Source: Pseudonocardia sp. SCN 73-27
Lineage (GTDB): Bacteria > Actinomycetota > Actinomycetes > Mycobacteriales > Pseudonocardiaceae
NCBI GenBank assembly: GCA_001725415.1
Contig: MEGH01000040.1
Coordinates: 1 to 64,000 of the forward strand
Reading direction: 5' to 3'
DNA: 64,000 nt
The notes below the pieces were generated by a model. It was not told the origin of the DNA. It saw nothing but the letters and a program-made list of their open reading frames with translations, and made no database searches. The position numbers and the translations under genes are program-made. Numbering within the stretch: the stretch's first letter is position 1; the number at the start of each line of letters is the position of its first letter. Positions 13,905-55,066 of this stretch are shown here, in pieces.

Positions 13905-13908
13905 CGAG

Positions 13909-14679: not shown

Positions 14680-14752
14680 CCGAGCCCGCGAGGTCACCGT
14701 TCATCACAGCAGCGCCGGTCACGCAGTTGCCGAGCGGCAGTGAGGCTCCTGC

Positions 14753-21831: not shown

Positions 21832-21891
21832 TCCGCCGCCTGTGAGTGGCGTTATTGGCTATAGCCAATAACGCCACTCACAGGCGGCGGA
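21832..21891. repeat. 60-bp perfect palindrome between divergent wall genes
   Basis: Two 30-nt arms meet with no spacer. The left arm begins TCCGCCGCCTGTGAGTGG and the centre is GGCTATAGCC. The right arm is its exact reverse complement. The last 16 bases (ACTCACAGGCGGCGGA) are repeated once more immediately downstream, ending at about 21905. The core, GTGAGTGGCGTTATTGGC, is AT-richer than its surroundings. It sits between the glycosyltransferase start (21749) and the dprE1 start (21942). It may be a dispersed REP-like element or a regulatory cruciform. Confidence 0.85.
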
Positions 21892-21941
21892 CTCACAGGC
21901 GGCGGAAGCGGCCAGTCTCGACCCGCGTAGCCTGGCCCGCG

Positions 21942-29158: not shown

Positions 29159-32152
29159 GTGCTCTCACCGGCCCACGCCCCCGAGGCCGACGGGACCACA
29201 TCGGACCCGGGAACACCGGGCGGGCCCCGCCGCATCGGCCCTGCGCACTGGGCCCTCCTCCTCGGCCTCCTCACGGTCCTGTGCGCCGTCGCGTTCCCCC
29301 TCGCGCCGGTCACGCAGCTGCAGGCCACGTACGCATGGGACGCCGCCGACGGTCCCGCCGCCATCCCCCTCATGCCCTACCAGCCGACGTCTGCGCAGGT
29401 CACGGTCGGCTGCGAGGCGGTCCGCAGCGCCGCGCCGGGCACCACGCTGCTGCGGACGGTCCCGGCCCGCACCGACCCGGGCGCCGAACCACTCGCCGGC
29501 CTCGAGCTGACCGCCGGCCCCGGTCTGACCGTGCGGTCGGCGGGGGCGGACGTCGGCACCGTCGACGTGCCCGCGGGCGACTGCACCGTCACCGTCACCT
29601 CCGATGTCTCCACGACCCGGGTGCTCGTCGACGGCCGGCCGGTCCTGACCGCCGCGGGCGACCTCCGGCCCGCTGTGGCGGGAGCGTTCGCCGACGTCGA
29701 CGTCGGACAGTCGTTCGGCCTGGTGGCCGACACCCGGTGGGAGACGACGATCTCCCCGCTCAAGGCCGCGATCGGCGTCGTCTGCCTGGCGGCGCTGCTC
29801 GGCACGCTCGTCGCGCTGGGCCGCTGCGACCGCGCCGCCCGGCCCCGGGTACGGCTGGTCGCCGAACCCGGGCGGCCGAGGGTCGTCGACGCGGCCGTGA
29901 CCGTCGTGCTGCTCGGCTGGTGGTGGATCGGGCCCGTCACCGTCGACGACGGCTACATCGCCGGGATCGTCCGTGCCCGGGGAGCCGACGGGTTCATCGG
30001 CAACGGCTACCGCTGGCTCAACGCCCCCGAGGCGCCGTTCAGCTGGTTCTACGAGCTGTACGCGCCGTGGTCGGACGTGTCGGCGTCCACGCTGTGGATG
30101 CGGCTGCCGTCGACGCTGCTGGGCCTGGGCTGCTGGCTGCTGCTGTCACGGGCCGTGCTGCCCCGGCTGGGCGTCGCGTTCCGGCTGCGCGGCGTGCCGT
30201 GGATCGCGGCCGCGGCCTTCGCGTCGTGGTGGCTGCCGTTCGACCTGGGGATGCGGCCGGAGCCGTGGGTCGCCGTAGGCACCCTGGCGGTGCTCGTCGC
30301 GGTCGAGCGGGCGGTCGCCCGGCGGGCCGTGCTGCCGCTCGCCGTCGCGCTGCTGCTCGCGGGCGTGACGACGGCCGTCACCCCCGGCGGGCTCATCGCG
30401 TTCGCGCCGATCGTGGCCGCGGTGCTGCCGCTGGTGCGGCTGCTGCGCGCGCGTCGTGACCTGCACGTGCTGCCGCTGGTCGCCGGGCTGCTCGGGGCCG
30501 CCGCCGCGCCGGTGCTGCTGATGTTCTCCGACCAGAGCCTCGCCGCCGTGCTCGAGTCGGTGCGGGTGCGGCGCGAGATCGGCGGCGGCGTCCCGTGGTC
30601 GCAGGAGTACGAGCGCTACGCGCTGCTGCTGAACGCCGACGACTTCCAGGGCGCCCTCGGCAAGCGCGCCCCCGTCCTGCTGACGCTGGTCGCCGTGGCC
30701 GGCGCGGTGTGGTCGGTGGCCGGCCGCGACCGGGCCGGGCTCGCCGCGGGCCCGGTGCGCAGGCTCGTCGTGGCGTTCGTGCTCAGCGTCGTGTGCCTGA
30801 CAGCGACTCCGACGAAGTGGACCCAGCAGTTCGGGGTGCTCGCCGGGCTCGGCGCCGCGGTGCTGACGGTGGCCGTCGTCGGCTGGACGACGTCGGCGCT
30901 ACGGGTGCGCACCCGGGGCCGGTCGCTGCTCCCGGTGCTCGCCGGGACCGCCGCGCTCACCGCGGCGGGCTCGCTCGTGCTGGCCGGTCGTGACCTGTGG
31001 CCCTACGTCTCCGGCTGGTACCCGACCGAATGGGGCCTGCACCCGCCCGGCCTGGCGGGCCGGGCGCTGTCGTCGTTGTGGCTGGTCCTCGGGGTGCTGG
31101 CGATCGTCGTCGTCGGCGGGATCGCCGTGTGGCGGGCCGCTTCCCCGTCGGGGACGGCGGTGACGCGCGCCGCCGCGCCCCGCCGCTTCCCCGCGCCCGG
31201 CTGGGTCGCGCTCGGGCTGGCCGTCGCGGTGCTGCTCGTGCAGGTCGCGGGCTTCGCCCGGTCCGCCGCCGAACACCCCGGCGCCTACACCCTGGCGGGC
31301 GACGCCGCCGCCACGCTCGCCGGCGACCCGTGCGGGCTGCAGTCGCACCTGCTCGTCGAGACCGACCCCGGCGCCGGCCAGCTGCCCTCGGTCGGGCCGC
31401 TCACCACGACCGCCCCCACCGCCGCCGCCGACGTCGGTGGGCGGCTCGTGCCCGGCATCGCCGTCGCCGGCGGCGGCGTCACCCCCTGGTTCGCCCTCGA
31501 CCCGGCCCAGCGCTCCGGCGACCTCCCCGTCGTCACCACCCTCAGCGGCATCCCCGGCGACACGACGCTCGTCGCCGAGTTCGCCGCAGGCCCCGGCCAG
31601 CCCCCGCTCGCCCGCCAGGACGTCACCACCGACGCCGCCCGCCCCGCCGACGTCCGCCTCGTCGCCCCGGCGGGCTCCGCGGTCGTGCGGCTCGTCGTCG
31701 AGTCCGGCGACGGGTCCGGGGGCACCGAGGTCGCCTCGCTCCCCCGCGTCCCCCGCCTGACCCCGATGACGACGCTGCTGCCCCGCGGCACGTCGGCGAT
31801 CCTCGACTGGCCCGTCGCCTTCACCTTCGGCTGCCTGCAGCCCGCGCCGTTGCGTGACGGCTCCGCCGGCCTGCCCGAGTGGCGTGTCGCACCCCCCGGC
31901 ACCGACCCGTCGGCCGGGATCACCTACTCGCCCACCTTCGGCGGGCCGTTCGCCGCGCCCCGCCTGCTGGTCGCCGAGGAACGCCTCCCCGTCTACCTCG
32001 CCGGCGATCCCGTCTCCGAACCCGTCCGGCTCTACCGATGGGTTGCGGCACAGGACTTCACGACACTCGCACCGGTGGTCACCGACCGTGATGCCTGGGG
32101 ATGGGAATCCGACGGCAGGGTCCGGGCGAGCTCGGCGCGAACGACAGGCTGA
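29159..32152 (+). CDS. emb: Arabinosyltransferase EmbC/A/B-type (single Emb)
   Basis: This 997-residue protein has the Emb layout. An N-terminal helix and a periplasmic jelly-roll domain (about residues 50-220) are followed by about a dozen helices and a C-terminal carbohydrate-binding domain ending near PVVTDRDAWGWESDG. The catalytic loop reads TVDDGYIAGIVRA with D263-D264; APFSWFYELYAPWS, LWMRLPSTLLG and GMRPEPWVAV follow as in EmbB. It uses decaprenylphosphoryl-arabinose outside the cell to extend arabinan. Aligned with M. tuberculosis EmbB, I270 stands at the Met306 position, where isoleucine gives ethambutol resistance. Only this intact emb is seen. Confidence 0.93.
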   Translation: MLSPAHAPEADGTTSDPGTPGGPRRIGPAHWALLLGLLTVLCAVAFPLAPVTQLQATYAWDAADGPAAIPLMPYQPTSAQVTVGCEAVRSAAPGTTLLRTVPARTDPGAEPLAGLELTAGPGLTVRSAGADVGTVDVPAGDCTVTVTSDVSTTRVLVDGRPVLTAAGDLRPAVAGAFADVDVGQSFGLVADTRWETTISPLKAAIGVVCLAALLGTLVALGRCDRAARPRVRLVAEPGRPRVVDAAVTVVLLGWWWIGPVTVDDGYIAGIVRARGADGFIGNGYRWLNAPEAPFSWFYELYAPWSDVSASTLWMRLPSTLLGLGCWLLLSRAVLPRLGVAFRLRGVPWIAAAAFASWWLPFDLGMRPEPWVAVGTLAVLVAVERAVARRAVLPLAVALLLAGVTTAVTPGGLIAFAPIVAAVLPLVRLLRARRDLHVLPLVAGLLGAAAAPVLLMFSDQSLAAVLESVRVRREIGGGVPWSQEYERYALLLNADDFQGALGKRAPVLLTLVAVAGAVWSVAGRDRAGLAAGPVRRLVVAFVLSVVCLTATPTKWTQQFGVLAGLGAAVLTVAVVGWTTSALRVRTRGRSLLPVLAGTAALTAAGSLVLAGRDLWPYVSGWYPTEWGLHPPGLAGRALSSLWLVLGVLAIVVVGGIAVWRAASPSGTAVTRAAAPRRFPAPGWVALGLAVAVLLVQVAGFARSAAEHPGAYTLAGDAAATLAGDPCGLQSHLLVETDPGAGQLPSVGPLTTTAPTAAADVGGRLVPGIAVAGGGVTPWFALDPAQRSGDLPVVTTLSGIPGDTTLVAEFAAGPGQPPLARQDVTTDAARPADVRLVAPAGSAVVRLVVESGDGSGGTEVASLPRVPRLTPMTTLLPRGTSAILDWPVAFTFGCLQPAPLRDGSAGLPEWRVAPPGTDPSAGITYSPTFGGPFAAPRLLVAEERLPVYLAGDPVSEPVRLYRWVAAQDFTTLAPVVTDRDAWGWESDGRVRASSARTTG

Positions 32153-39612: not shown

Positions 39613-41601
39613 TCAGTCTTCGAAGATCTGCTTCCAGCCCTCGCGGCTGGTCAGCGTCGGCTGCGCCTCCCGGTAGCGACGCTGCAGCTCCGGCCACCGC
39701 TTGCCGATCTCACGCAGCTGCAGGCCCGACTTCTTCAGCTGGGCGGAGAACAGGGCGCGGTCGCGGCGGCGGAACGTGACGCCGCGGCCGTCGGGCGTCG
39801 ACACCGTCGCCGAGTCGAGCTGCGCGAGCACGTACCAGTGCGCCTTGCGCGACGGCACGTTGCGCTGCGGCACGTCGTGGTGCGCCGGGTTGGTCGGGCG
39901 CAGGTTGGCCACGACGGCCCGGCCCAGCATCTTCACGGCGCCCTTCGCGCTGCGCGGCGGGTCCGGGAACACCTGTGCGGCCAGCTCGTCGAGATCCGAG
40001 AGCGGGACCTGGGACGCCGAGTCGAGCGGGCGGCCGTCGTCGAACTCCGCGCGCTTGGCCCGGATCTCCGGCAGCACCGTCGGCAGCGTGGGGAACAGCG
40101 CCTCCGGGCCGGCGAGGAAGTCGCGCAACGCCATGTCCTGCAGCGCCATCGCCGAGTACTCCATGAGCAGCAGGTGGCGCAGGCTGCGCTTGAAGGTGTC
40201 GATGAGCAGGGCCCGCGGGTTGGCCGGGCCGTGCAACGCCGCCGCGACGAAGCGGTTGCGGTAGTGGAAGTAGGCCTGCCAGTCGCTGGTGTCGTCCTTC
40301 TCCAGGAACGACATGTGCCAGATCGCGATGCCCGGGACCGTCGCCGTGCGGTAGCCGCGGGAGCGGGCGCGCAGGCCGTACTCCGCGTCGTCCCACTTGA
40401 TGAACAGCGGCAGCGGCAGGCCCAGCTCCTCGGCGACCGAGCGCGGGATCAGGCACATCCACCACGCGTTGTAGTCGACGTCGGTGCGCGAGTGCAGCCA
40501 CGGCGTGCTGCGCAGCGGCTGGTCGGCGAGGTCGTGGTGCGGCTGGGTACCGGGGGCGTTGCGCCACAGGAAGGCGTTGCGGTCGACGACCTCGCCCATC
40601 GTCGACAGCTGCGACCGCGCCTGCAGCGACAGCATCTGCCCGCCGACGAGCATCGGGGTCCGCGCGAACCGCGAGAACGCGACGGCCCGCAGCACCGAGT
40701 CGGGCTCGAGCAGGATGTCGTCGTCCATGAACAGGATCTGCTCGCAGTCGGTCGACCCGAGCGCCTCGTACATGACGCGCGCGTAGCCGCCCGAGCCGCC
40801 GAGGTTGGGCTGGTCGATGATCCGCAGCCGGTCGCCCAGACGCGCCGCGGCGGTCTCGAAGCCGTCGGCGTCGCGGACCTTCTGCGTGCCCTGGTCGGGC
40901 AGGATCACGGCCGTGACCTCGGCGAGCACCGCCGGGTCCTCACCGATCGCGGTCAGCGTGGCGACGCAGTCGGCGGGCCTGTTGAACGTCGGCATCCCGA
41001 CGGTGACGGCCGCGCGACCAGGTACAGGCCGGTCGGCGAACCAGCCGCCCTCCAGCAGCGTCAGCTCGGCGTCGTCGGTGACCAGGTCGAACCAGTACCA
41101 GCCGCCGTCCTCGAACGGCTTGAGGTCGAGCGCGATGTCGACCTGGCGCCGTCCGTCGACGACCTCCCCGCCGACGTAGATGTGTGTGCCGTCGGCCTTC
41201 GTCCGGTAGATCTCGACGCGGCCGGCGCCCTCCAGCGTCAGCCGCAGGTGCACCTCGGTGAGGATCGACCAGCGCCGCCAGTAGCCGGCCGCGAACGCGT
41301 TGAAGTACGCGCCGAAGGACACCTCTGAACGCGCCGGCACCGCCGCCGACGTCCGCGACAGCACCCGCAGCCGCCGACGGCCCCGCTGACCCAGTGTGAG
41401 CGACACCGGCAGCACGGTCTCACCCGGATTGGGCTCCTCCGTCGCGAGCTTCGCGCCGGAGCCCTCGTCGACGTACAGCGCGCGCACGCGCGTCGGGTCG
41501 GCCGCCCGCGGCAGGATCACCCTCTGGAGCAGGCCGGGCGCGCTGTCGGCGGGCTCGTCGGAGACGGGGCGCGTGGTCGGGTCGGTGGCGAGCTCGGTCA
41601 T
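39613..41601 (-). CDS. glfT2: Galactofuranosyltransferase GlfT2
   Basis: This 662-residue enzyme matches mycobacterial GlfT2 along its length. GLLQRVILPR opens it; the beta-sandwich has SEVSFGAYFNAFAAGYWRRWS; the GT-A domain has VGMPTFNRPADCVATL, QPNLGGSGGYARVMYEAL and ILFMDDDILLEPDS. MGEVVDRNAFLWR, NAWWMCLIPR, FIKWDDAEYGLRAR and IWHMSF follow. It polymerises the galactan with alternating beta-1,5 and beta-1,6 links on the inner membrane face. It follows glf (124-bp gap) in the same direction as in M. tuberculosis, where glf is immediately upstream. Confidence 0.95.
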   Translation of the reverse strand: MTELATDPTTRPVSDEPADSAPGLLQRVILPRAADPTRVRALYVDEGSGAKLATEEPNPGETVLPVSLTLGQRGRRRLRVLSRTSAAVPARSEVSFGAYFNAFAAGYWRRWSILTEVHLRLTLEGAGRVEIYRTKADGTHIYVGGEVVDGRRQVDIALDLKPFEDGGWYWFDLVTDDAELTLLEGGWFADRPVPGRAAVTVGMPTFNRPADCVATLTAIGEDPAVLAEVTAVILPDQGTQKVRDADGFETAAARLGDRLRIIDQPNLGGSGGYARVMYEALGSTDCEQILFMDDDILLEPDSVLRAVAFSRFARTPMLVGGQMLSLQARSQLSTMGEVVDRNAFLWRNAPGTQPHHDLADQPLRSTPWLHSRTDVDYNAWWMCLIPRSVAEELGLPLPLFIKWDDAEYGLRARSRGYRTATVPGIAIWHMSFLEKDDTSDWQAYFHYRNRFVAAALHGPANPRALLIDTFKRSLRHLLLMEYSAMALQDMALRDFLAGPEALFPTLPTVLPEIRAKRAEFDDGRPLDSASQVPLSDLDELAAQVFPDPPRSAKGAVKMLGRAVVANLRPTNPAHHDVPQRNVPSRKAHWYVLAQLDSATVSTPDGRGVTFRRRDRALFSAQLKKSGLQLREIGKRWPELQRRYREAQPTLTSREGWKQIFED

Positions 41602-41725
41602 CAGGGGTGAGCCTCGGGTCCTTCGCTGGTCGGCGGCACACCCGCCCGGAGTGGCAGGCGCGCCACCGAGGGTAGCGACGCGACCGGCATCACGGCGGCA
41701 CGCCCCCGGCGCGTCGCAGGTCGGC

Positions 41726-44444
<2,719 letters not shown>

Positions 44445-44606: not shown

Positions 44607-46556
44607 GTGCCGCCGCCGGAGGTCGGGTTCGCCGACGTCGCGCTGATCGGCTTCTACCTGGCGACGCTCGCGATCCCCGGAGGGCTCGCCGGGTTCGCCG
44701 CCGGGCTGCGCGGGTGGACGCTCGCAGCGGCCGCCCCGCTGCTCACGTACGCGATCGCCGGTCTCGCCGGCCCGTGGACGACCGCACTCGGAATCGGGTG
44801 GTCGCCGCTGGTCTTCGGCATCGCCACCCTGGTGTTCGCCGCCGTGCTGTTCGCGGTGCGCGGCGTCCGGCGTGCCGAGCCGCGCGACCCGGTCGCGCCC
44901 TGGTCCGCCGGAGCACACGCCGGGGTGGCGGTCGTGGTCGCCTTCGCCGCAGCTGTCGGCGCGTACGCGATCCTCCGCGGCTTCCACCGGATCACGACGA
45001 TCCCGCAGGACTGGGATGCCGTCTTCCATGCCGACGGCATCAGATGGATCGCCCAGACCGGCGACGCCGGCCTCTTCGGCATGAGTCAGATCAACTGGTA
45101 CGAGGGCGGGGCGATCTTCTACCCGAACGCCTACCACCTGGTCGGTTCCGTCGTCTTCTCGATCACGCGGTACGACACCCCCGCCATCCTCAATGCGCAG
45201 ACCGTGCTGCTACCGGGTCTGGCGGCGCTCACCCTCGCGGCCCTCGTCCGGCGGATGGGGGGTGCTTCGATCCACGCCGCAGCGACGGCGGCCGTCGCCG
45301 TCGCGGGCAGTGCGCTGTACGACATGCTGTGGCGGGGCCCCCTGCTCCCCTACGCCACCGGCGTCGTTCTCACCCCGGCGTTCGTCCTCCTGCTGGCCCA
45401 CTTCCTCGACGCCAAGAAGATTCGAGCCCGGCTCGGCGGTCTGTTCGCGCTCGCGCTCGGCGCAGCGGGCCTGCTGTGCATCCATCCGGCCATGTTGTTC
45501 GGGGCGGTCGTGTTCGGCCTGCCCTACGTCGTCTGGCGATGGGTCCGCAGACCTCGGCGGCTGCGCAGCGAGCCGGCGCTCCTGATCGGAGCCGGCATCC
45601 TCGGGCTCGCCTTCTCGTTCCTGCAGATCCGGGGGTCCCTGTACAGCGCGGCGAGTTTCCCCGAGGTCGACTGGCCCGCCGTGTCGGGGTGGCGCCGTGC
45701 GGTGTTCGAGCTGGCGACCTTCGGGCACGCCGCCTCGACCGTTCAGGTCTGGCTGACGATCCTCGCGGTCGTCGGCGTCGTGATGTACTGGCGGCTCGGC
45801 GACCTGCGCTGGATCGCCGCCCCCATCGTCGTCTTCGGATTCCTCTTCGTCGTCACGGCGAGTTCGGATGCGGCCTGGGTCCAAGCCGTGACACGGCCCT
45901 GGTGGAACGACCGGTTCCGGCTCGCCGGACTGTTCGTCGTAGCGGCGGCCCCGGTCGTCGGACACGGTCTGGCGCAGCTCGCCGAGGCCGCAGGCTGGCT
46001 GCAGCGCCGGCTGGTTCGCAGGCTCGGGGACCGTCCCCGGTCGCGGGTCCTGCAGGTCGTACCTGCTGTCGTCGCCCTGGTCGTGTTCGTCGCCGTCACC
46101 CACGTTCTCTACGTGGGGCGCAACGCGGAGAAGATGGCCCTCAACACCGGAGACGGGCCCGCGGTGTCAGGGGGCGAGGTCGCCGCCATGGCCGAACTCG
46201 GCAGGATCGTCCCACCGGGCTCGAAGGTGATGAACGACCGCTACGACGGATCCGTCTGGATGTACGCCCTGGACGGGGTACGGCCCGTGGCCGGTCACTA
46301 CGACGCGACCAACCTCGGAGACACCGACATCGGGCTGCTCGAGCGCTCGTTCAACCGCTACGCCGTGGACCCCGCGGTCAGGGACGCGGTTCGCCGGCTC
46401 GACGTCCAGTACGCCGTCGTCGGCCAGGGCTTCCTTCGCGGGGACAGCACGCGCGCCGCCGGGCTCGTCGGGCTCGACGACCAGCCGTGGCTGGAAGTCG
46501 TCTATCGCAGCCCGCAGGCCGTCATTTATCGGGTGTTGCCGCTTCCGCCGGGCTGA
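44607..46556 (+). CDS. Rv3779-like (DUF6541) membrane glycosyltransferase
   Basis: This 649-residue protein has about twelve helices and a periplasmic tail. The first large loop reads PQDWDAVFHADGIRWIAQTG, then GGAIFYPNAYHLVGSVVF; the conserved WD, YP and H are those of the DUF6541 group. GTG 44607 follows GGAGG. In M. tuberculosis, Rv3779 of similar length and family is needed to add galactosamine to arabinan from a polyprenyl-phosphate donor. Here the gene is convergent with, and overlaps by 35 bp, a GT2 gene of the kind that makes such donors, which supports a transfer role for an amino sugar. Confidence 0.8.
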   Translation: MPPPEVGFADVALIGFYLATLAIPGGLAGFAAGLRGWTLAAAAPLLTYAIAGLAGPWTTALGIGWSPLVFGIATLVFAAVLFAVRGVRRAEPRDPVAPWSAGAHAGVAVVVAFAAAVGAYAILRGFHRITTIPQDWDAVFHADGIRWIAQTGDAGLFGMSQINWYEGGAIFYPNAYHLVGSVVFSITRYDTPAILNAQTVLLPGLAALTLAALVRRMGGASIHAAATAAVAVAGSALYDMLWRGPLLPYATGVVLTPAFVLLLAHFLDAKKIRARLGGLFALALGAAGLLCIHPAMLFGAVVFGLPYVVWRWVRRPRRLRSEPALLIGAGILGLAFSFLQIRGSLYSAASFPEVDWPAVSGWRRAVFELATFGHAASTVQVWLTILAVVGVVMYWRLGDLRWIAAPIVVFGFLFVVTASSDAAWVQAVTRPWWNDRFRLAGLFVVAAAPVVGHGLAQLAEAAGWLQRRLVRRLGDRPRSRVLQVVPAVVALVVFVAVTHVLYVGRNAEKMALNTGDGPAVSGGEVAAMAELGRIVPPGSKVMNDRYDGSVWMYALDGVRPVAGHYDATNLGDTDIGLLERSFNRYAVDPAVRDAVRRLDVQYAVVGQGFLRGDSTRAAGLVGLDDQPWLEVVYRSPQAVIYRVLPLPPG

Positions 46557-47595
46557 CTGCGCCGTGGCCTGCGGCCTTCTCCTGGTCGACCTCTGCCAGC
46601 GGCGGCAGGAGCGGGATCTCGCGCTTACCGCTCCGCGTCTGACGTGAGGGAGGTGCGGTCGGGCGGTCCGGACTCTCCTGGATGTCGAGCATCAGGGCGT
46701 ACATCAGCATCTGCATGCCCAACAGCCACGGTGCGACCGCCAGGACGACCGACCCCGCGGTCGCAGCCGGGGGGCCGAGTGTCTCGATGATCGTCCAGAT
46801 GCCGACGGCTGTGCCGAAGAGCGTCAGGAACAAGCCACCGAGGACGAACAACGCCACCGGCGAGAACGAGTGCACGACGTACTTCCACAGGAAGCGCCGC
46901 CACAGTCCGCGGACCAGCAGGTTGCTGATCTCCGGACCGACCCTGCTCAGCTTGATCGACGAGACCTCGTTGCCGTAGACGGCCGGGATCGGCACATCCG
47001 TGGCGGGCACACGCAGGATGTTGAGATTGATCAAGACGTCGTTCTCGTAGGAGTACCGCTGCGCCAGCTGCTCCAGCGGCATTCGCTGCAACACGTCCCG
47101 ACGGGTGGCCGTGTAGCCATTCTGCGGGTCGAAGATGTGCCAGTAGCCGGAGGCGAACTTCGTCAGGAACGACAGGACGATGTTGCCGAAGATCCGGTAC
47201 TTCGGCATGCCGTGATAGGAACCCGTCGAGAAGAACCTATTGGCCTTCGCGAAGCCGTACCCGTCGTGGACGATCGGATCGAGCAGCGCCGGAAGGTACG
47301 TCGGGTCCATCTGCGCATCGCCGGCCATGACGACGTTGATGTCGGAGCCGAGGTCGAGCGCGGCCCGGTGGCCGGTCACGATCGCACCGCCGACGCCCGT
47401 GTTCTTCTCGTGACGGATCACCGTCACCCGAGGGTCTCCGACAGCCTTCGCCACCTCGGACGTCCGGTCCGGGCTGTGGTCGTCCACGATGACGATGAGG
47501 TCGACAAAGTCGGGCATGGTCGTGATGACCTGCCCGATCAGCTTCTCCTCCTTGAACGCCGGCACCACCGCGGCGATCCGGTGACCCTCGTACAC
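46522..47595 (-). CDS. Polyprenyl-phosphate-sugar synthase (GT2, PpgS/GtrB-like)
   Basis: This 357-residue protein has a GT2 catalytic domain. RIAAVVPAFKEEKLIGQVI and LIVIVDDHSPDRTSEVA begin it; VVMAGDAQMDP is the metal site, and PQNGYTATRRDVL is the acceptor-side signature. Two membrane helices follow at about residues 245-315, and then a charged tail. That is the build of enzymes that join a nucleotide-activated sugar to polyprenyl phosphate. GTG start has AGGAGG upstream. It is the last gene of a leftward operon with a sugar oxidoreductase, a GtrA protein and an aminotransferase, so its sugar is probably the amino sugar made by them. Confidence 0.88.
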   Translation of the reverse strand: MYEGHRIAAVVPAFKEEKLIGQVITTMPDFVDLIVIVDDHSPDRTSEVAKAVGDPRVTVIRHEKNTGVGGAIVTGHRAALDLGSDINVVMAGDAQMDPTYLPALLDPIVHDGYGFAKANRFFSTGSYHGMPKYRIFGNIVLSFLTKFASGYWHIFDPQNGYTATRRDVLQRMPLEQLAQRYSYENDVLINLNILRVPATDVPIPAVYGNEVSSIKLSRVGPEISNLLVRGLWRRFLWKYVVHSFSPVALFVLGGLFLTLFGTAVGIWTIIETLGPPAATAGSVVLAVAPWLLGMQMLMYALMLDIQESPDRPTAPPSRQTRSGKREIPLLPPLAEVDQEKAAGHGAVSPAEAATPDK

Positions 47596-47609
47596 GAGCG
47601 AGTCCCTCC

Positions 47610-48554
47610 TCAGAGTCCGGCGGCGACGCGGACCTGCATGGCCAGCTCGAGCGCCCGCAGCCCGTCGATTCCGCTGACCCGCGGGGTCGTTCCATTCTGG
47701 ACCGACTGTACGAAGTGGGACAGCTCGAGGTAGAGCGGCTCGCCGCGGTGCTCGAGGAACGGCACCTCGACCACACCCGTCTGGCGGTAACGAGTTCCCT
47801 CGTCGGAAAGGTACTCGGAGTGGTCGACGCGGTTGATCGTCACGTCCTGGCGCAGCAGGTCTACGCTGACGAAGTCGGTCTCCCTGGTGAGCGAGAGCGT
47901 CCGGATCTTGTTCTGGCCGATCCGGCTCGCCGTCAACGCCGCGCTGACGCCGTTGTCGAACTCGATCAGCGCGCTGACCAGGTCCTCGGTCGCGGACCGG
48001 GTCCGTCGCGCGGTGGCGTGGACGCCGGTCGGCTTCCCTCCGGCCAACGACGCGACGATGTCGAGGTCGTGGATCATCAGGTCGAGAACCACCCCGACCT
48101 CGACCCGGCTGCTGTAGGGGCTGATCCGTGCAGCTTCGAGGTGCACGATGCCCTCGGAGAGCCGGTCGAGTTCGAGGATCGCCGGGTTGAAGCGCTCGAC
48201 GTGCCCCACCTGCAGCAGCACTCCGGCCGCGTCCGCCGCGTCGACCAGCCGGATCGCGTCGTCGACAGATGTGGCGATCGGCTTCTCGACGAGCAGGTGG
48301 ATCCCGCGAGCGACGAGCTCCAGCGCATGTTCGACGTGCTGCGAGCTCGGGGAGGCGATGACCGCACAGTCCGCGACGACGTCACCGAGCTCGGTCGTCG
48401 CCTTCGCACCGCACGTCGCCGCGAGCCGCTCGGCCCGCTCGATGTCGGTGTCCACGACGAAGGTGACGTCCACGTCGGGGAGGGACCGCGCGATACGGGC
48501 ATGGTTCGTGCCCATGATCCCGGCGCCGACGATCGCGAACTTCAGCTGGCTCAT
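47610..48554 (-). CDS. Gfo/Idh/MocA-family sugar oxidoreductase (GnnA/WbpB-like)
   Basis: This 314-residue enzyme has an N-terminal Rossmann domain (LKFAIVGAGIMGTNHARI) and the EKP motif in LLVEKPIAT, where lysine is catalytic, plus a C-terminal sheet domain. It should oxidise a nucleotide sugar hydroxyl with NAD(P). Its partner genes point to GnnA or WbpB chemistry, oxidation at C3 of a UDP-sugar before transamination. Start ATG overlaps the GtrA stop as ATGA. The exact sugar is not shown by the sequence. Confidence 0.88.
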   Translation of the reverse strand: MSQLKFAIVGAGIMGTNHARIARSLPDVDVTFVVDTDIERAERLAATCGAKATTELGDVVADCAVIASPSSQHVEHALELVARGIHLLVEKPIATSVDDAIRLVDAADAAGVLLQVGHVERFNPAILELDRLSEGIVHLEAARISPYSSRVEVGVVLDLMIHDLDIVASLAGGKPTGVHATARRTRSATEDLVSALIEFDNGVSAALTASRIGQNKIRTLSLTRETDFVSVDLLRQDVTINRVDHSEYLSDEGTRYRQTGVVEVPFLEHRGEPLYLELSHFVQSVQNGTTPRVSGIDGLRALELAMQVRVAAGL

Positions 48555-49018
48555 TCTTTCCCTACGGTCGGGCTACCGGGTGTCGGCTTGTCGGCCTCAC
48601 GGAACACCCAGAGCTGATACACGAAGTAGTTCCACACCGTCGTCATCCCGACGGCCACGATCTTGCCGATCTGGTAGCCGAGGCCAAGATGGTCGGCCAG
48701 CGCGATGACCCCGAGCGTCGCGAGGTAGTTGACGCCGAGCAGCACGAAGTACCGGACGATCTGGCGGTGCGCCATTCCACGCGCACCGAAGGTCACGTAC
48801 TTGTTGGTCAGGAAGACGACGGCGAGGCTGGCCCAGAACGCGATCGTCGTCGCGACCCAGACCGGCGTGCCGACGACCTCTCGGAAGAAGACCAGCATTC
48901 CGAAGTCGACAGCGAAGCCGACGAGGCCGACGGCGACGTAGATCGCGAAGCGACGGAGGCTCACCGATGCGATGAGCTTCCTCAGCTTCGACGGCGCCGC
49001 CGCGGCCGAGTCCGTCAC
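48551..49018 (-). CDS. GtrA-family membrane protein of sugar-modification locus
   Basis: This 155-residue protein has four helices in the GtrA pattern (LRRFAIYVAVGLVGFAVDFGM; FWASLAVVFLTNKYVTFG; YFVLLGVNYLATLGVIALAD). It is the second GtrA gene of the window. GtrA proteins move or help use polyprenyl-phosphate sugars; in mycobacteria Rv3632 of this family partners PpgS. Start GTG overlaps the aminotransferase stop and its stop overlaps the Gfo/Idh start, so it is co-translated with sugar enzymes. Confidence 0.87.
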   Translation of the reverse strand: MTDSAAAAPSKLRKLIASVSLRRFAIYVAVGLVGFAVDFGMLVFFREVVGTPVWVATTIAFWASLAVVFLTNKYVTFGARGMAHRQIVRYFVLLGVNYLATLGVIALADHLGLGYQIGKIVAVGMTTVWNYFVYQLWVFREADKPTPGSPTVGKE

Positions 49019-50133
49019 GACACGACGTCCCGAACGGCGTCGGCGATGCGCTCCAGGTCGTCCTCGCTGAGGTGTGCGTGCACAGGAAGCGACACGCAGC
49101 GGGCCGCGACCTGAGCCGCGACCGGGGTGTCCTCGACGACGACGCGAGGGTGGCCGCTGTAGCAGGCGTAGTCGCCTGCGAGCTTCGGGTAGTAGATGCC
49201 GCTTCCGACGCCCCGCTCCGCAAGTCCTGCCACGAACGCGTCCCGGTCCCGGCCTTCGTCGAGCAGGACGGTGTACTGGTGCCACACGTGCTCGCGTCCG
49301 GGCAGCACAGCCGGCAGCGACAGACCGTCCACGTCCGCGAGGCGTTCGGACAGCGTCGCGGCGTTGTGCCTGCGACGGGCCACCTGCTCCTCGTAGCGCG
49401 CGATCTGCGGCAGTCCGACGGCGGCGGCGAGATCGGTCATCCGGTAGTTGTGACCGACCATCTCGTACTCGTAGCGGGCCCGCATGCCCTGGTTGCGCAT
49501 GATGCGGAGCCGGTCGGCGACATCGTCGTCCGACGTCGTGATCATGCCGCCCTCGCCGGTCGTGAGGTTCTTGGTGGCATAGAACGAGAAGCAGCCGACA
49601 CCGAAGGACCCGGCGGCGCGGCCCTTGTAGCGCGCGCCGTGCGCCTGGGCCGCGTCCTCGACGATGCGGAGGTCGTTCGCGGCGGCGATCTCGGAGAGCG
49701 GGTCCATGTCCGCGGTCTGCCCGAACAGGTGCACGGGCATCAGCACGCTCGTCGAACCGGTCACGGCCTTCTGCACCGAGACGGGGTCGAGGGCGAAGTC
49801 GTCGGTCGCGATGTCGGCGAAGCGGACGGTGGCGCCCGTCGCGAGCACGGCGTTCACGGTGGCGATGAAGGTGAACGGCGAGGTGAGCACCTCGTCGCCC
49901 TCGCCGACGCCGATCCCGAGAAGCGCGGCGGTCAGCGCGGTGCTGCCGTTGTTGACCGCGACGGCGTGCGGTACGCCGGTCAACTCCGCGAAGGCCTGCT
50001 CGAACTCGGCCACCTTGCGACCCTGCGCAATCTGGCCGGAGCGGAGGACTTCGACGACCGAGCGTTCGACCTCGTCGTCCAGGACGACGGTCGAGACATG
50101 GATCGGACGACTCTCGGTACCGCTGCTGGTCAC
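49015..50133 (-). CDS. DegT/DnrJ/EryC1/StrS sugar aminotransferase (GnnB/WbpE-like)
   Basis: This 372-residue PLP enzyme has the family core. AFAELTGVPHAVAVNNGSTAL comes first, VEDAAQAHGARYKG holds the PLP-contacting aspartate, and FYATKNLTTGEGGMIT contains the Schiff-base lysine. GHNYRMTDLAAAVGL follows. It should transaminate a keto-sugar nucleotide, most likely the product of the Gfo/Idh enzyme two genes downstream. GTG start. It is divergent from the LpxA-like gene across 63 bp. Confidence 0.92.
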   Translation of the reverse strand: MTSSGTESRPIHVSTVVLDDEVERSVVEVLRSGQIAQGRKVAEFEQAFAELTGVPHAVAVNNGSTALTAALLGIGVGEGDEVLTSPFTFIATVNAVLATGATVRFADIATDDFALDPVSVQKAVTGSTSVLMPVHLFGQTADMDPLSEIAAANDLRIVEDAAQAHGARYKGRAAGSFGVGCFSFYATKNLTTGEGGMITTSDDDVADRLRIMRNQGMRARYEYEMVGHNYRMTDLAAAVGLPQIARYEEQVARRRHNAATLSERLADVDGLSLPAVLPGREHVWHQYTVLLDEGRDRDAFVAGLAERGVGSGIYYPKLAGDYACYSGHPRVVVEDTPVAAQVAARCVSLPVHAHLSEDDLERIADAVRDVVS

Positions 50134-50196
50134 GAAACGTCAGGGTAACGGGACCGCTTCCGGATGCATCGACCGGCGCCTCTACCGTGTGTCGCC

Positions 50197-50889
50197 GTGA
50201 CGGTCCATTCCAGCGTCGTCCTGTCGAAGGGCGTCGAGCTCGGCGAACGTGTCGTGATCGGCCCGAACACGGTCCTCCTGGGCCCGTGCACGATCGGCGA
50301 CGACGTGTGGATCGGCCCCGGCTGTGTCATCGGCACCCCGCCCGAGCTCACGAGCGCCCGGCAGAACGCGGCGTGGGACGACGACCTCGACCATCACGGC
50401 GTCGAGATCGGTGCGGGAAGTGTCATACGTGAGATGTCCTCCATCCAGCAGGGCAGCCGACGGCCGACTCATCTCGGTGCGGGCTGCTGGCTGCTCAGCC
50501 GCAGCTACGTGGCGCACGACTGCATCCTCGAGGACGGCGTCACGACCTCGGCCGGCGTGACGCTCGGTGGTCATTCCCAGGTCGGTGCCGGCGCCACGAT
50601 CGGGATGAACGCCACAGTGCACCAGCGCAGGATCGTCGGCCCGGGCTCGATGGTCGGGATGTCTGCGGCGGTGACCCGCGACCTGCCCCCTTTCGCCAAG
50701 GCGTACGGGACTCCTGCGAGGACCCGCGGGGCGAACACCATCGGGATGTCACGCCAGGGCATCGACGCCGCCGAGACCGACGCGCTCGACGCCGCGTACC
50801 GGGAGGGGCGGGCGCCGGACGCGACGTTCGACGATCCGCGTCTCCGCGCTGCCTTCGAGTGGGTGGCGGACGCGGTCGCCCGCGTCTGA
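50197..50889 (+). CDS. LpxA-like left-handed beta-helix sugar N-acyltransferase
   Basis: This 230-residue protein has hexapeptide repeats from residue 1 to about 165 (IGPNTVLLGPCTIGDDVWIG; AGVTLGGHSQVGAGATIG) and a helical C terminus. SYVAHDCILEDG places H107 where LpxA has its catalytic histidine, and NTIGMSRQGI matches the NxIGxxRxG that binds the nucleotide sugar in LpxA. The organism has no lipid A genes in view, so it should acylate the amino group made by the divergent aminotransferase, as in GnnA-GnnB-LpxA sets. Chain length of the acyl group is unknown. GTG 50197 is preferred. Confidence 0.85.
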   Translation: MTVHSSVVLSKGVELGERVVIGPNTVLLGPCTIGDDVWIGPGCVIGTPPELTSARQNAAWDDDLDHHGVEIGAGSVIREMSSIQQGSRRPTHLGAGCWLLSRSYVAHDCILEDGVTTSAGVTLGGHSQVGAGATIGMNATVHQRRIVGPGSMVGMSAAVTRDLPPFAKAYGTPARTRGANTIGMSRQGIDAAETDALDAAYREGRAPDATFDDPRLRAAFEWVADAVARV

Positions 50890-50895
50890 CGCAGG

Positions 50896-51816
50896 TCAGC
50901 TGTAGACGGCGAGGACGAGCGTGGCGATCCACGCCAGCCCGAGCACCTGCAGGACGTGGTCCTTGATCGCGATCTCGTCGGGCGCCCCGCCGTTGCCGCT
51001 GTCGACGTCGACCGAGTAGCGCAGCACGGCGACGACGAAGGGCACGATCGAGATGATCGACCACACCGAGTTGTGGTGCGCCTCGCGGATCTCGAAGGCC
51101 CACAGGCAGTAGGTCATGATCAGCACTGTGGCCGACAACGCCCACACGAACCGCAGGTACGACGACGAGTAGCTCTCCAGCGACTTGCGGATCTTCGCGC
51201 CGGTGCGCTCGGCCAGCATCATCTCGGCGTAGCGCTTGCCCGCCACCATGAACAGCGAGCCGAACCCGGCGGCCAGCAGGAACCACTGCGACAGCGGAAT
51301 GCTCGCCGCGGCACCACCGGCGATGGCGCGGAGCAGGAAGCCGGAGGCGACGATGCAGATGTCGAGCACCGGCTGGTGCTTGAACCAGAAGCAGTAGCCC
51401 AGCTGCACCGCGATGTAGACGCCCAGCACGATGAGCAGCTGCAGCGACGCCAGGATGCTCAGCGCGAGCGAGCCGAGGATGAGGACGACGGCGAGGGCGT
51501 AGGCCAGCCGGACCGGGACGATGCCGGCGGCGATGGGCCGGCTGCGCTTCTTGGGGTGGGCGCGGTCGGCCTCGACGTCGTTGGCGTCGTTGACCAGGTA
51601 GATCGCGGAGGCGGCGAGCGAGAAGGCCACGAACGCGATGGCGAGGTGGTAGGCCGAGCGACCGTCGAACAGCTCGCCGGCCGCGAAGGGCGCGGCCAGC
51701 ACGAGGATGTTCTTGATCCACTGCTTGGGCCGCATGGTGCGCAGCAGGCCCAGGCCGATCCCGACCGGGGTGCGCACCACGGGCGCGGCGGTGGGCGGGG
51801 TGTCGGTGCTGGTCAT
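50896..51816 (-). CDS. ubiA: Decaprenyl-phosphate phosphoribosyltransferase (UbiA, DPPR synthase)
   Basis: This 306-residue membrane protein has eight to nine helices and the UbiA-type signature YLVNDANDVEADRAHPKKRSR, where NDxxDxxxD binds magnesium diphosphate. It transfers phosphoribose from PRPP to decaprenyl phosphate, the first step to the arabinose donor. ATG 51816 overlaps the PAP2 phosphatase stop as ATGA. Its mycobacterial counterpart is Rv3806c. Confidence 0.95.
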   Translation of the reverse strand: MTSTDTPPTAAPVVRTPVGIGLGLLRTMRPKQWIKNILVLAAPFAAGELFDGRSAYHLAIAFVAFSLAASAIYLVNDANDVEADRAHPKKRSRPIAAGIVPVRLAYALAVVLILGSLALSILASLQLLIVLGVYIAVQLGYCFWFKHQPVLDICIVASGFLLRAIAGGAAASIPLSQWFLLAAGFGSLFMVAGKRYAEMMLAERTGAKIRKSLESYSSSYLRFVWALSATVLIMTYCLWAFEIREAHHNSVWSIISIVPFVVAVLRYSVDVDSGNGGAPDEIAIKDHVLQVLGLAWIATLVLAVYS

Positions 51817-52415
51817 CGCTCGCCCGCCCGTCGCGCCGCCGATCGACGCAGCCACGCCCGGACGCCGCCGGCGACGCCCGCGCCGAGCGCGGAGCCGACG
51901 AGCACGTCGGACGGGTAGTGCACGCCCAGGACCAGCCGCGACAGCGCCATCGGCGGCACGATCACCGGCACCAGCGGCTTCTTCAGCATGCCCCCGTAGA
52001 GGACGGCGGCGGCCGTGGTCGAGGTGGCGTGGGCCGACGGGAAGCTCAGCCGGCTCGGCGTCGTGACCAGCACGCGGACCGAGGGGTCGTCGGGGCGGCG
52101 GCGGCGCACGACGCGCTTCACCGCGATCGAGGCGCCGTGCGCGGCGGCGACACCGGCGACGGCGCCGAGCCAGTCCCGGCGGCGCTCGCGGTCGACGGCG
52201 GCACCGACGAGCCCGAGGGCCAGCCAGCCGGCGGCGTGCTCACCGAACAGCGACATCCGGCGGGCGACCGTCACGACCGGCGGCTTCGCGGCGACGGCCT
52301 GGACCGCGTTGAGCATCCGGACCTCCGGGGCCCGGTCGGCTGCGTCGGGGACGACCGTGAGAACGGGCGGCGGGGCGGGTTCGGTCTCGCCCGGACGGAC
52401 GACGGGCTCGGCCAC
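51813..52415 (-). CDS. PAP2-family phosphatase of the DPA pathway (Rv3807c-like)
   Basis: This 200-residue protein has the three PAP2 motifs: KRVVRRRRPDD, SFPSAHATS and SRLVLGVHYPSD. A soluble N terminus of about 65 residues precedes three or four membrane helices. It should remove the 5-phosphate from decaprenyl-phosphoribose-5-phosphate made by UbiA, with which it is translationally coupled. Its order and partner agree with Rv3807c. GTG start. Confidence 0.9.
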   Translation of the reverse strand: MAEPVVRPGETEPAPPPVLTVVPDAADRAPEVRMLNAVQAVAAKPPVVTVARRMSLFGEHAAGWLALGLVGAAVDRERRRDWLGAVAGVAAAHGASIAVKRVVRRRRPDDPSVRVLVTTPSRLSFPSAHATSTTAAAVLYGGMLKKPLVPVIVPPMALSRLVLGVHYPSDVLVGSALGAGVAGGVRAWLRRSAARRAGER

Positions 52416-52484
52416 GGTGGTGGGCCTCCTGTGCGCCGGACCTGGGGTGGTGGCGCTGCTCGGCGGTTGTTCCGGCGCACGATG

Positions 52485-53339
52485 CTACGCGCGGCGGGTT
52501 TCCGCGGCGGTGTCGGGGAGGCCGGACGACGCCCACCGCTCCAGGACGCGGGCCACCCCGTCGTCGGTGTTGGGGGCGGTCACCTCGTCGGCGACGGCGA
52601 TCAGCGCCGGGTGCGCGTTGCCCATCGCGACACCGTGCCCGGCCCAGCGCAGCATCTCGATGTCGTTGGGCATGTCACCGAAGGCGATGACGTCGGTCGC
52701 GTCGATCCCGGCGGCACCTGCGACCTCGGCGAGCCCGGTGGCCTTCGTGATCCCCGGCGACGAGGCCTCGACGAGCCCGCCGGAGTGGGAGAACGTGAGG
52801 TCCACGGCGTCGCCGACCGCGGGGCCGAGCGCGGCCACCATCTCCTCCGACGTCATGCCGGGCATCCGGACCAGCAGCTTCACCGCCGGGCTGGACAGCA
52901 GGTCGGCGCGGTCCGTGCGGCCGCTGTCGTCGTCCTCCCAGGCGTGGCTGTAGCCCGGTTCGGCGAGGAACTGGCCGTCGACGTCGTCGAACGCGCCGGT
53001 GGCGACCCGTTCGACGGCGATGCCGCAGCCGGGCAGGGCGCGGTGGGCGGCGTCGGCGAGGAAGGCGAGGGTGTCGCGGTCGATCTCGCGGGCCCACAGC
53101 ACCCGGTCGGCGACGGCGTCGTAGAGGACGGCGCCGGTGGCGCACAACGCGAGCCGCACCGAGCCGAGCTGGGCGGCGACCGGCGGGATCCAGCGCGGGG
53201 GCCTCCCGGTGACCAGCACGAACCGGCCGCCGTCCGCGACGTAGTCGTCGACGGCGCGGGCGGTCCGCTCGGTCACCTGCAGCTGGGGGTCGAGCAGCGT
53301 CCCGTCGACGTCGGTCGCGACCAGCCGGGGTGCCTGCAC
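52485..53339 (-). CDS. HAD-superfamily Cof-type hydrolase
   Basis: This 284-residue protein has the HAD motifs: nucleophile ATDVDGTLLD at residue 7, threonine in LVTGRPP, lysine in GITKATGL, and AFGDMPNDIEML with the metal aspartates. The large insert is the Cof-type cap domain. It likely dephosphorylates sugar or nucleotide phosphates. A related gene (Rv3813c) lies near glf in M. tuberculosis. Confidence 0.92.
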   Translation of the reverse strand: MQAPRLVATDVDGTLLDPQLQVTERTARAVDDYVADGGRFVLVTGRPPRWIPPVAAQLGSVRLALCATGAVLYDAVADRVLWAREIDRDTLAFLADAAHRALPGCGIAVERVATGAFDDVDGQFLAEPGYSHAWEDDDSGRTDRADLLSSPAVKLLVRMPGMTSEEMVAALGPAVGDAVDLTFSHSGGLVEASSPGITKATGLAEVAGAAGIDATDVIAFGDMPNDIEMLRWAGHGVAMGNAHPALIAVADEVTAPNTDDGVARVLERWASSGLPDTAAETRRA

Positions 53340-53366
53340 GCGCCCCAGCCTACGAGGCGCCGGTCG

Positions 53367-53819
53367 TCAGAGGATCGCGACCGCGACGACCAGGCCCAGC
53401 GCGACGTGCGCGGCGGCGACGACCCAGGCCTGCGGCTTCAGGTCGGGCGCGGCGAGGACGTGGCCGATGTCGATGCCCGTCACCCACTCCAGCAGTCGCA
53501 CGGCCAGCACCTGCGCGACGATCCCGACGAGGCCGAAGATCAGCGACGCCAGCAGGCCCTCGGCGAGCGCCCCGGACACGCTGTAGATCGCGGTGACGAC
53601 GATGAGCGCCATGCTCACCATGCCCGCGGACGTGACGACGACGGCGTTGGGCAGCCCCTCGCGGACCATCCGGTTGAGCTTGCCGGGCGTCGTCAGGTCG
53701 ATGGCCCAGAATCCGAGCAGCATCAGCAGCAGGCCGATCAGCGCGTACAGCAGGATCGCGCCGATGCCGCGGCCGACGGTCCCGAAGAATCCAGGCTCGA
53801 GGGCCAGCAGGGCGGTCAT
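53367..53819 (-). CDS. DUF350 membrane protein
   Basis: This 150-residue protein has four membrane helices in two similar halves (GAILLYALIGLLLMLLGFWAIDL; LASLIFGLVGIVAQVLAVRLLEW), the DUF350 pattern. ATG follows GGAAGG. It is the third gene after a hypothetical membrane protein and a glutathionylspermidine-synthase-like gene in the same direction. This trio recurs in bacteria, and its function is not settled; membrane protection and conflict roles have been suggested. Confidence 0.88.
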   Translation of the reverse strand: MTALLALEPGFFGTVGRGIGAILLYALIGLLLMLLGFWAIDLTTPGKLNRMVREGLPNAVVVTSAGMVSMALIVVTAIYSVSGALAEGLLASLIFGLVGIVAQVLAVRLLEWVTGIDIGHVLAAPDLKPQAWVVAAAHVALGLVVAVAIL

Positions 53820-53847
53820 GGGGGTGTTCCTTCCGGGGAGCGGGATC

Positions 53848-53914
53848 GGACTCGGGGATCGGGGACCGGACTCGAACTCAGGACTCGGGGATCTCGGACT
53901 CAGGACTCGGGGAT
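53848..53914. repeat. Tandem repeat with 11-bp period at the end of the GspS-like gene
   Basis: GGACTCGGGGA occurs at 53848, 53881 and 53903, and units such as TCTCGGACTCA fill the gaps with an 11-bp period. The array starts in the spacer and enters the last codons of the synthase gene, whose stop (53902-53900) lies inside it. This may be a slippage-prone spot. Confidence 0.7.
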
Positions 53915-55066
53915 GCGGTGCGGGACGAACGCGGCACCGTCGTCGGTGACCAGCCCGACGGTCTCGCGGATGCCGAGCCCGGCGGCGGAGTCGCCGACCA
54001 CCCACGCGCCCAGTGCCGGACGGAACCCGTCGAACTCCGGCAGCGGGTCGAACAGCTGGTAGACGTATCCTTCCTCGCCGTACACGCCGCCGGTGGACAC
54101 CTCGCTGCCCGGTGACACGATCGAGACGTTCGCCCCTTCTCGTCCGAGAAGCGGCTTCTTCACGTAGTCGGTGAGCAGCCCGGGGTGCTGCAGGTAGGCG
54201 GGCAGCAGGTTGGGGTGCCCGGGGTACATCTCCCAGAGCACGGCCAGCAGTGCCTTGTTGGACAGCAGCGACTTCCACAACGGCTCGAGCCACAGCGTGT
54301 CGGGCAGGCTGCGGGCGACGTGCTTGCCGAAGTCGTCGGAGAGCACCCACTCCCACGGGTAGAGCTTGAACACGGCGGCCATCGGCGCCTCGGCGAGGTC
54401 GACGAAGCGGTCGAGCGCCGCCTCCCAGCCGATGTCCTCGATGGCCAGGCCGACGGTGTCGATCCCCGCCTCGGCCGCCGTCTCCTGCAGGTAGCCGACG
54501 GTGACGTGGTCCTCGCCGGTGGTCTCCGAGCCCGACCAGGTGAAGTGCACCTCGGAGCCGGGCAGCCCCGCCTTGATCTCCGTCCAGCGCTCGACGAGCT
54601 TCTCGTGCAGGGAGTTCCACTGGTCGTCGGCGGGGTGGACGTCCTTGAGCCAGTACCACTGCAGCAGCGACGCCTCGAGCAGCGTCGTCGGGGTGTCGGC
54701 GTTGTACTCCAGCAGCTTCGCCGGGCCGGAGCCGTCGTAGCGCAGGTCGAAGCGGCCGTAGACGTGCGGGTCGTGGCGCCGCCACGACGCCGCGACCGAC
54801 TCCCACGACCATTCGGGCAGCGCGAAGTCACGGAACCGCTCCGTGGTGACGACGTGGTCGACCGCGTCGAGGCACATCGAGTGCAGGAGCTCGACGTCGG
54901 CCTCGAGGGAGAGGATCTCGTCCATCTCGAAGACGTAGTGGACCGACTCGTCCCAGTACGGGCGCGCGGCGCCGCCCGCGCCGCGGCCCGGAGTGCCGTA
55001 CACCATCCCCTGCTCGCTGACGATCTTCTCCCAGCCGGGCCGAGGAGTGCCCTTCTCCCTGCGCAT
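53900..55066 (-). CDS. Glutathionylspermidine synthase-like ATP-grasp protein
   Basis: This 388-residue protein matches the synthase part of glutathionylspermidine synthase, as in E. coli YgiC and YjfC. Motifs are YGRFDLRYDGSGPAKLLEYNADTPT, VFKLYPWEWVLSDDFG, LWEMYPGHPNLLPAYL and KKPLLGREGANVSIV; the last two contribute ATP and metal ligands. It should be an ATP-dependent amide ligase; glutathione is not expected in an actinobacterium, so the true substrate is likely different. It starts at the stop of the upstream gene. Confidence 0.9.
   Translation of the reverse strand: MRREKGTPRPGWEKIVSEQGMVYGTPGRGAGGAARPYWDESVHYVFEMDEILSLEADVELLHSMCLDAVDHVVTTERFRDFALPEWSWESVAASWRRHDPHVYGRFDLRYDGSGPAKLLEYNADTPTTLLEASLLQWYWLKDVHPADDQWNSLHEKLVERWTEIKAGLPGSEVHFTWSGSETTGEDHVTVGYLQETAAEAGIDTVGLAIEDIGWEAALDRFVDLAEAPMAAVFKLYPWEWVLSDDFGKHVARSLPDTLWLEPLWKSLLSNKALLAVLWEMYPGHPNLLPAYLQHPGLLTDYVKKPLLGREGANVSIVSPGSEVSTGGVYGEEGYVYQLFDPLPEFDGFRPALGAWVVGDSAAGLGIRETVGLVTDDGAAFVPHRIPES

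Follow-up and report, generated by a model that had tools for sequence, protein, structure and literature searches.

The window analysed here is a 64,000-nucleotide stretch of Pseudonocardia sp. SCN 73-27 (contig MEGH01000040.1), which includes an arabinogalactan (AG) cluster with a set of six genes between the UDP-galactopyranose mutase gene glf and the decaprenyl-phosphate phosphoribosyltransferase gene ubiA. We read these six genes, with a probability of about 0.6, as one exchangeable allele of an AG-decoration cassette, the products of which would make an acylated amino sugar and attach it to AG. The six genes and the two genes bordering the gap are:

41726..42922, minus strand: glf, UDP-galactopyranose mutase, left border of the gap, start approximate (PF03275, 277 bits)
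44607..46556, plus strand: DUF6541 membrane protein, predicted GT-C type transferase attaching the lipid-linked sugar (PF20176, 418 bits, cut-off 29)
46522..47595, minus strand: GT2 polyprenyl-phosphate-sugar synthase with C-terminal membrane spans (PF00535, 76.5 bits)
47610..48554, minus strand: Gfo/Idh/MocA dehydrogenase, predicted UDP-N-acetylglucosamine (UDP-GlcNAc) 3-dehydrogenase, GnnA-like (NF040723, PDB 7bvj)
48551..49018, minus strand: small membrane protein of the GtrA type, predicted to act as a flippase or as partner of GT2 (PF04138, 68.5 bits)
49015..50133, minus strand: DegT/DnrJ/EryC1 pyridoxal-phosphate aminotransferase, predicted GnnB-like (PF01041, 401 bits)
50164..50889, plus strand: LpxA-like left-handed beta-helix acyltransferase, start possibly at a later GTG (Hexapep; NF003657, 152 bits)
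50896..51855, minus strand: ubiA, decaprenyl-phosphate phosphoribosyltransferase, right border of the gap (NF008978, 468 bits, cut-off 207)

An earlier note on this DNA had described six open reading frames (ORFs) in this order and layout, and the description holds: all six frames exist, their families match and the overlaps are as it gave them. The GT2 and DUF6541 genes are convergent and share 35 bp, the Gfo/GtrA and GtrA/DegT overlaps measure 4 bp each, and the LpxA-like gene is divergent from DegT.

The gap between glf and ubiA across the genus

UbiA was searched in 62 Pseudonocardia genomes and is present in 61. The loci compared number 63, namely 60 from 58 genomes, L138, L139 and the window, each covered to the end of its stretch; many of the genomes compared in this work are drafts. 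Both borders are visible in 32 of these loci, and the 31 stretches without glf, seven of which extend no more than 3.6 kb from ubiA, were scored as neither filled nor empty. L052 and L195 were counted as one genome, and L052 and L140 were excluded before the gaps were counted.

Eight of the 32 fully visible gaps measure 33-189 bp and count as empty, and the other 24 are filled with 5.8-13.3 kb, both members of the near-duplicate pairs L169/L170 and L189/L191 being counted among the latter. Every filled gap (24 of 24) carries DUF6541 together with a GT2 protein matching a polyprenyl-phosphate-synthase profile, which was itself derived from GT2 proteins of these gaps and is not independent for those; the GT2 match is weak in five (88-98 bits in L138, L214, L219 and L220, 101 bits in L167). 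In addition, 11 of the filled gaps have a small membrane protein of the DUF2304 family and four have a GtrA. Where glf is out of view DUF6541 was seen in 15 of the 31 loci and GT2 in 21. Other sugar genes found in the 54 clustered intervals, open ones included, encode RmlA (434 bits) and RmlB (436 bits), both above the cut-off, while further gap representatives are RmlC- and RmlD-like proteins below the cut-off, a methyltransferase and NeuB. The differing contents of the gap suggest different AG decorations among congeners.

The six-gene version was found in three of the 61 genus genomes, 31 loci not being seen to the far border: the window, L176 and the genome of L195/L052. The latter is Pseudonocardia humida, and both it and the L176 congener have the same six genes in the same order and arrangement, with protein identities of 59-87% across the three species. 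The closest relatives by UbiA (96, 92 and 88% identity; L162-L164) lack the set in fully seen gaps, which hold DUF6541 at 49% identity and a different GT2 between flanks that are 84-95% identical. At the DNA level L162 is 95% identical to the window up to position 42939 and 94% from position 50896 onwards, and between these points only the DUF6541 stretch can be aligned (65%). Cassettes appear to be exchanged between fixed glf and ubiA borders; the site is comparable to serotype loci, and the six genes form one of its alleles. The neighbourhood comparison which the earlier note had proposed therefore finds the six genes travelling together in three genomes, but as a patchy set and one allele at a swap site.

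Two further observations concern the gap. In congeners (L162-L221) dTDP-rhamnose-type genes, NeuB-type genes and methyltransferases occupy this same place. Genome G705 has three UbiA copies (L179, L187, L188), of which one lies where the glf-ubiA gap is empty; the extra copies reflect either a duplication or a mixed assembly.

The proposed route and the acyl step

In the proposed route the Gfo enzyme would oxidise UDP-GlcNAc at C3 and DegT would aminate the product to UDP-GlcNAc3N, after which the LpxA-like enzyme would N-acylate the 3-amino group from an acyl carrier protein (ACP) thioester; the acyl chain is probably of short or medium length. GT2 would load the sugar on polyprenyl phosphate, and GtrA would either flip the lipid-linked sugar or help GT2. 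Outside the membrane DUF6541 would transfer the sugar to AG, an acceptor predicted from the locus and from DUF6541.

Among NCBIfam models the Gfo protein matches best the archaeal GnnA equivalog NF040723 (203 bits, below its cut-off of 450), and in the PDB its residues 3-312 match best 7bvj, which we take to be a GnnA structure (113 bits, the next match reaching 61). As expected of a GnnB type, the aminotransferase belongs to the DegT family and its gene has a Gfo gene as partner; its best PDB matches are perosamine synthetases (257 bits), and perosamine synthetase is a C4 enzyme. GT2 scores 66.5 bits with AglJ and 45 bits with PpgS (NF058614, cut-off 370), both below cut-off, and is 85 and 87% identical to its counterparts in the two congeners.

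Outside the genus the donor genes are again found as a group in several families of actinobacteria, and for this reason we regard the grouping of the six genes as more than chance. Among 150 genomes of the family, GT2 was found at E 1e-30 in the window genome only, DUF6541 in 83 and DegT relatives at E 1e-70 in 56. LpxA relatives at E 2e-45 or better occur in 40 of these genomes at 41 places, the window's included, and the stretches of the other 40 places contain DegT in 36 cases and DUF6541 in 21. GT2 at E 1e-25 occurs in 15 of 396 phylum genomes, again counting its own. In a species-genome collection we took the best 80 of at least 466 GT2 relatives, some on short contigs; 61 of these 80 loci have DegT as well as Gfo, 58 have GtrA and 11 an LpxA-type gene above 110 bits. 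Nine of the 80, all from Microbacteriaceae, have LpxA-DegT-Gfo-GtrA-GT2 in one block. The earlier inference that the six genes form one pathway is partly supported: the genes behave as a unit, but the acyltransferase and the membrane partner are separable, NeuD-like and DUF2142 proteins taking their places elsewhere.

After exclusion of the duplicates L195, L131, L044 and L050 the Gfo proteins fall into three classes, with 42-76% (class A, 20 loci), 33-39% (class B, 43 loci, DegT 56-64%) and 30-34% (class C, 40 loci, DegT 44-49% where found) identity to the window proteins. In the window a class A Gfo goes together with an LpxA from a clade of Pseudonocardiaceae, and in the nine Microbacteriaceae loci a class B Gfo goes with another LpxA clade. 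On the LpxA tree, which is midpoint-rooted only and carries a long-branch warning, presence of GT2 and GtrA requires at least two changes, among which there may be losses. Acyltransferase and lipid-loading module were therefore probably joined more than once, or lost between, and this speaks for functional coupling.

The acyltransferase itself remains below the cut-offs of the LpxA equivalogs (NF003657, 152 versus 226 bits; TIGR01852, 140 versus 231 bits). Its residues H118, D119, H153 and Q154, which align with the LpxA chain 3r0s, are the same in all 34 aligned rows, and we take H118-D119 to be the catalytic His-Asp and H153-Q154 the HQ motif of LpxA. M166 is conserved in at least 90% of rows and is aligned with a glycine in 3r0s. 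Presumably this is the position setting acyl length in LpxA, where glycine goes with long and methionine with shorter chains, so that a short or medium acyl chain is expected. In 53 loci with an LpxA-like gene above 110 bits, most of them chosen for LpxA and with both L052 and L195 included, DegT is present in 49 and Gfo in 48, and 22 contain an ACP, a FabG-like reductase, an AMP-ligase and a LuxE-like protein, with the ACP adjoining LpxA in 21 of the 22; the ACP call rests on PF00550 at its cut-off of 20.8 bits in the one member tested. This set accompanies LpxA-like, DegT and Gfo genes in Pseudonocardiaceae (L014-L018, L023, L024, L142, L145 and others), and it may serve to supply acyl groups for wall amino sugars. 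The cassette in the window is without it.

It is possible, if rather unlikely, that the acyltransferase only acetylates and that the product is a 2,3-diacetamido sugar of known type without a longer acyl chain. The methionine just described fits a shorter chain, and a NeuD-like hexapeptide protein stands in 41 of the best 80 of at least 466 GT2 loci (46 matches less five cross-matches at 27-29% to LpxA-type genes; for the two such proteins tested NeuD is the best model, below its cut-off). A diacetamido sugar, ManNAc3NAcA, is moreover known from a Streptomyces wall polymer (PMC13274773, accessible part). A longer chain is favoured by the better fit of the window protein to LpxA models (152 bits) than to NeuD (108 bits), and by the ACP module of the 22 loci.

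The transferase and its acceptor

The large membrane protein is still labelled as of unknown function in Pfam. Among 200 genomes of the order PF20176 is found in 12 genomes of one genus (g47, family f2), and in the five mycobacteria-like loci fetched from these DUF6541 adjoins wzt-glfT1-wzm, with GtrA beyond. By the Rv gene order we take this neighbourhood to be the position of Rv3779, which supports the comparison with Rv3779 made in the earlier note. A similar arrangement is present in L137 (family f89). The window protein shares D137, H141, Y172, P173, D435 and R438 with all five g47 proteins, at an overall identity of only 23-26%. Rv3779 is described as moving a flipped lipid-linked sugar onto AG, after PpgS; Cgp_0658 is its orthologue, and phage Cog forms no plaques on mutants without ppgS, cgp_0658 or cgp_0396 (PMC9671496, accessible part).

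Among the best 80 of at least 466 GT2 loci DUF6541 is present in 20, several of these matches being weak (24-28% identity), DUF2142 in 26 and both in two. We read this as a putative constant donor module with an exchangeable transferase. In Microbacteriaceae and Micromonosporaceae DUF2142 stands in place of DUF6541 beside the same donor genes (L099:13803-15368, L081:11024-12601). Ten Arthrobacter, Paenarthrobacter and Sinomonas loci (L056, L057, L059-L062, L064, L066, L067, L069) have glf and a glfT2-like gene with DUF6541-GtrA-GT2, a hint of a decorated wall galactan in these genera. In the 59 GT2 loci longer than 18 kb glf/glfT2 and DUF6541 are associated (9 of 15 versus 8 of 44, Fisher p 0.006); as all nine are from the Arthrobacter group we give this association little weight.

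The cassette might decorate another envelope polymer or a glycoprotein, the AG cluster being only a convenient insertion site, which we consider unlikely. Donor genes without glf or glfT2 in view are held by Microbacteriaceae, Micromonosporaceae and Streptomyces loci, many with DUF2142. For AG speak the presence of DUF6541 in all filled glf-ubiA gaps, the mycobacteria-like members at the presumed Rv3779 position, and the Arthrobacter, Paenarthrobacter and Sinomonas loci in which GT2-GtrA and DUF6541 lie beside glf and glfT2 relatives.

Several observations weigh against our reading of the cassette as a maker of an acylated AG substituent. None of the nine Microbacteriaceae five-gene loci has glf or glfT2 in view and seven have DUF2142, so that the donor module is not AG-specific and acceptors other than AG are possible. 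DUF6541 lacks wzt-glfT1-wzm neighbours in L134 (f2, another genus), and it is over the cut-off in the archaeon Methanosarcina acetivorans, a control genome, so that the family is not confined to AG makers. No GnnA, LpxA or PpgS model reaches its cut-off on the window proteins. All three Gfo classes, class C included, match 7bvj best, and this match does not settle the substrate. The LpxA clade of the window is separate from the main ACP-module clade, and no LuxE relative was found in the window genome in a search run without a positive control.

The sugar, known systems and flanking genes

If the Gfo enzyme used UDP-N-acetylglucosaminuronic acid, as WlbA and WbpB do, the sugar would be an acylated diamino uronic acid. 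The WbpB/WbpE/WbpD set likewise comprises a Gfo protein, a DegT protein and a hexapeptide acyltransferase (reference in PMC13274773, accessible part). We searched for the UDP-sugar 6-dehydrogenase of such a pathway, which was not favoured by the result: the enzyme is absent from the cassette, none of the stretches with a class A (20) or class B (43) Gfo gene contains it, and relatives in the window genome have only 28-31% identity. This absence is weak evidence, because loci of class C, which we suspect of acting on uronic acids, mostly go without the enzyme too (present in 5 of 40). The Gfo protein also matches 7bvj at 113 bits versus 61 for 3q2k, presumably the WlbA structure, and altogether a uronic acid seems improbable. 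It is very improbable that the cassette is a mere passenger, decayed or silent: its distribution is patchy, and the G+C contents of GT2 and GtrA are 65.1 and 64.5% versus 71.7% for the window, but the six frames are intact and their order is kept in three species at the protein identities given above.

An acylated amino sugar made by the six genes and attached to AG would have relatives among known systems. The mycobacterial and corynebacterial galactosamine system of AG (PpgS, Rv3632 or Cgp_0393, Rv3779 or Cgp_0658) likewise consists of a GT2 synthase, a partner and a large membrane transferase (PMC9671496, accessible part). It employs N-acetylgalactosamine obtained through a UDP-sugar epimerase and deacetylated later, whereas in the window the place of the epimerase is taken by Gfo, DegT and LpxA, GT2 is closer to the AglJ model than to that of PpgS, and the genes lie together in the glf-ubiA gap. 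The GnnA/GnnB/LpxA pathway of 2,3-diamino lipid A is again a combination of Gfo/Idh, DegT and LpxA (gnnA/gnnB roles in PMC5644692, accessible part), but it makes a Gram-negative lipid A precursor, and the product proposed here would go to polyprenyl phosphate and a wall glycan. Streptomyces griseus makes an actinomycete wall 2,3-diamino sugar with its utr cluster, in a teichuronic-acid-like polymer with ManNAc3NAcA (PMC13274773, accessible part); that is a uronic acid polymer on wall teichoic acid, in contrast to the single-sugar decoration via polyprenyl phosphate, with an LpxA-like enzyme, proposed here. Side groups of AG differ among genera, and in Nocardia nova the galactan is substituted with beta-glucose, which is not an acyl amino sugar; the accessible passage names no genes (PMC12794489).

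A text search of the open-access literature returned, by its listings, nothing on DUF6541 and nothing on AG decoration in Pseudonocardia, and on GnnA/GnnB/LpxA only work in Gram-negative bacteria. The parts are known, and the earlier statement that no system with this exact set is described agrees with this search, in which neither the gene combination nor the swap site was found. To our knowledge few AG substituents are known. The swap site ties DUF6541 to AG or galactan decoration across a genus and predicts the type of sugar per strain. Two questions follow: does AG, like O-antigen, differ from strain to strain, which would bear on phage receptors and recognition, and are the wall sugars of Gram-positive bacteria acylated by chemistry of the LpxA type? 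A doubtful but wider reading is that Pseudonocardia AG might be a serotype-like surface antigen, in which a fixed pair of DUF6541 and synthase would be combined with sugar modules swapped by recombination, and in which acyl chains, brought onto AG by a lipid-A-style 3-N-acyl amino sugar, might form an alternative hydrophobic wall coat or a phage receptor in an actinomycete that presumably lacks mycolic acids.

The gene order is glfT2-glf-[AftB-like gene, six genes]-ubiA, and the other genes noted in the window are:

13029-15667: ABC transporter pair and a GT2 taken for GlfT1
15677-16111: GtrA outside the gap
21846-23315: flavin adenine dinucleotide oxidase
29159-32152: Emb-type arabinosyltransferase (PF04602, 421 bits)
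39613..41601, minus strand: glfT2, galactofuranosyltransferase 2, left flank, AG core (PF19320, 248 bits; PF17994, 162 bits)
42945..44444, minus strand: AftB-like gene, multi-span membrane protein of 499 amino acids inside the gap, frame by codon-position GC

Two frames were rejected as genes, 41601-42704, where the true gene is glf, and the plus-strand ORF 51918-54062, an antisense frame over a HAD gene. The position of the six genes within the AG cluster is as the earlier note had it, but the identity of their left neighbour as AftB was rejected, as the 42945-44444 protein has no Pfam match and its best PDB sequence match has an E of 0.53. A simple scan gives it nine hydrophobic spans. Relatives with 40-46% identity occur in six genus loci (L172, L173, L183, L200, L205, L209), and in L173, L183 and L200 they directly adjoin ubiA.

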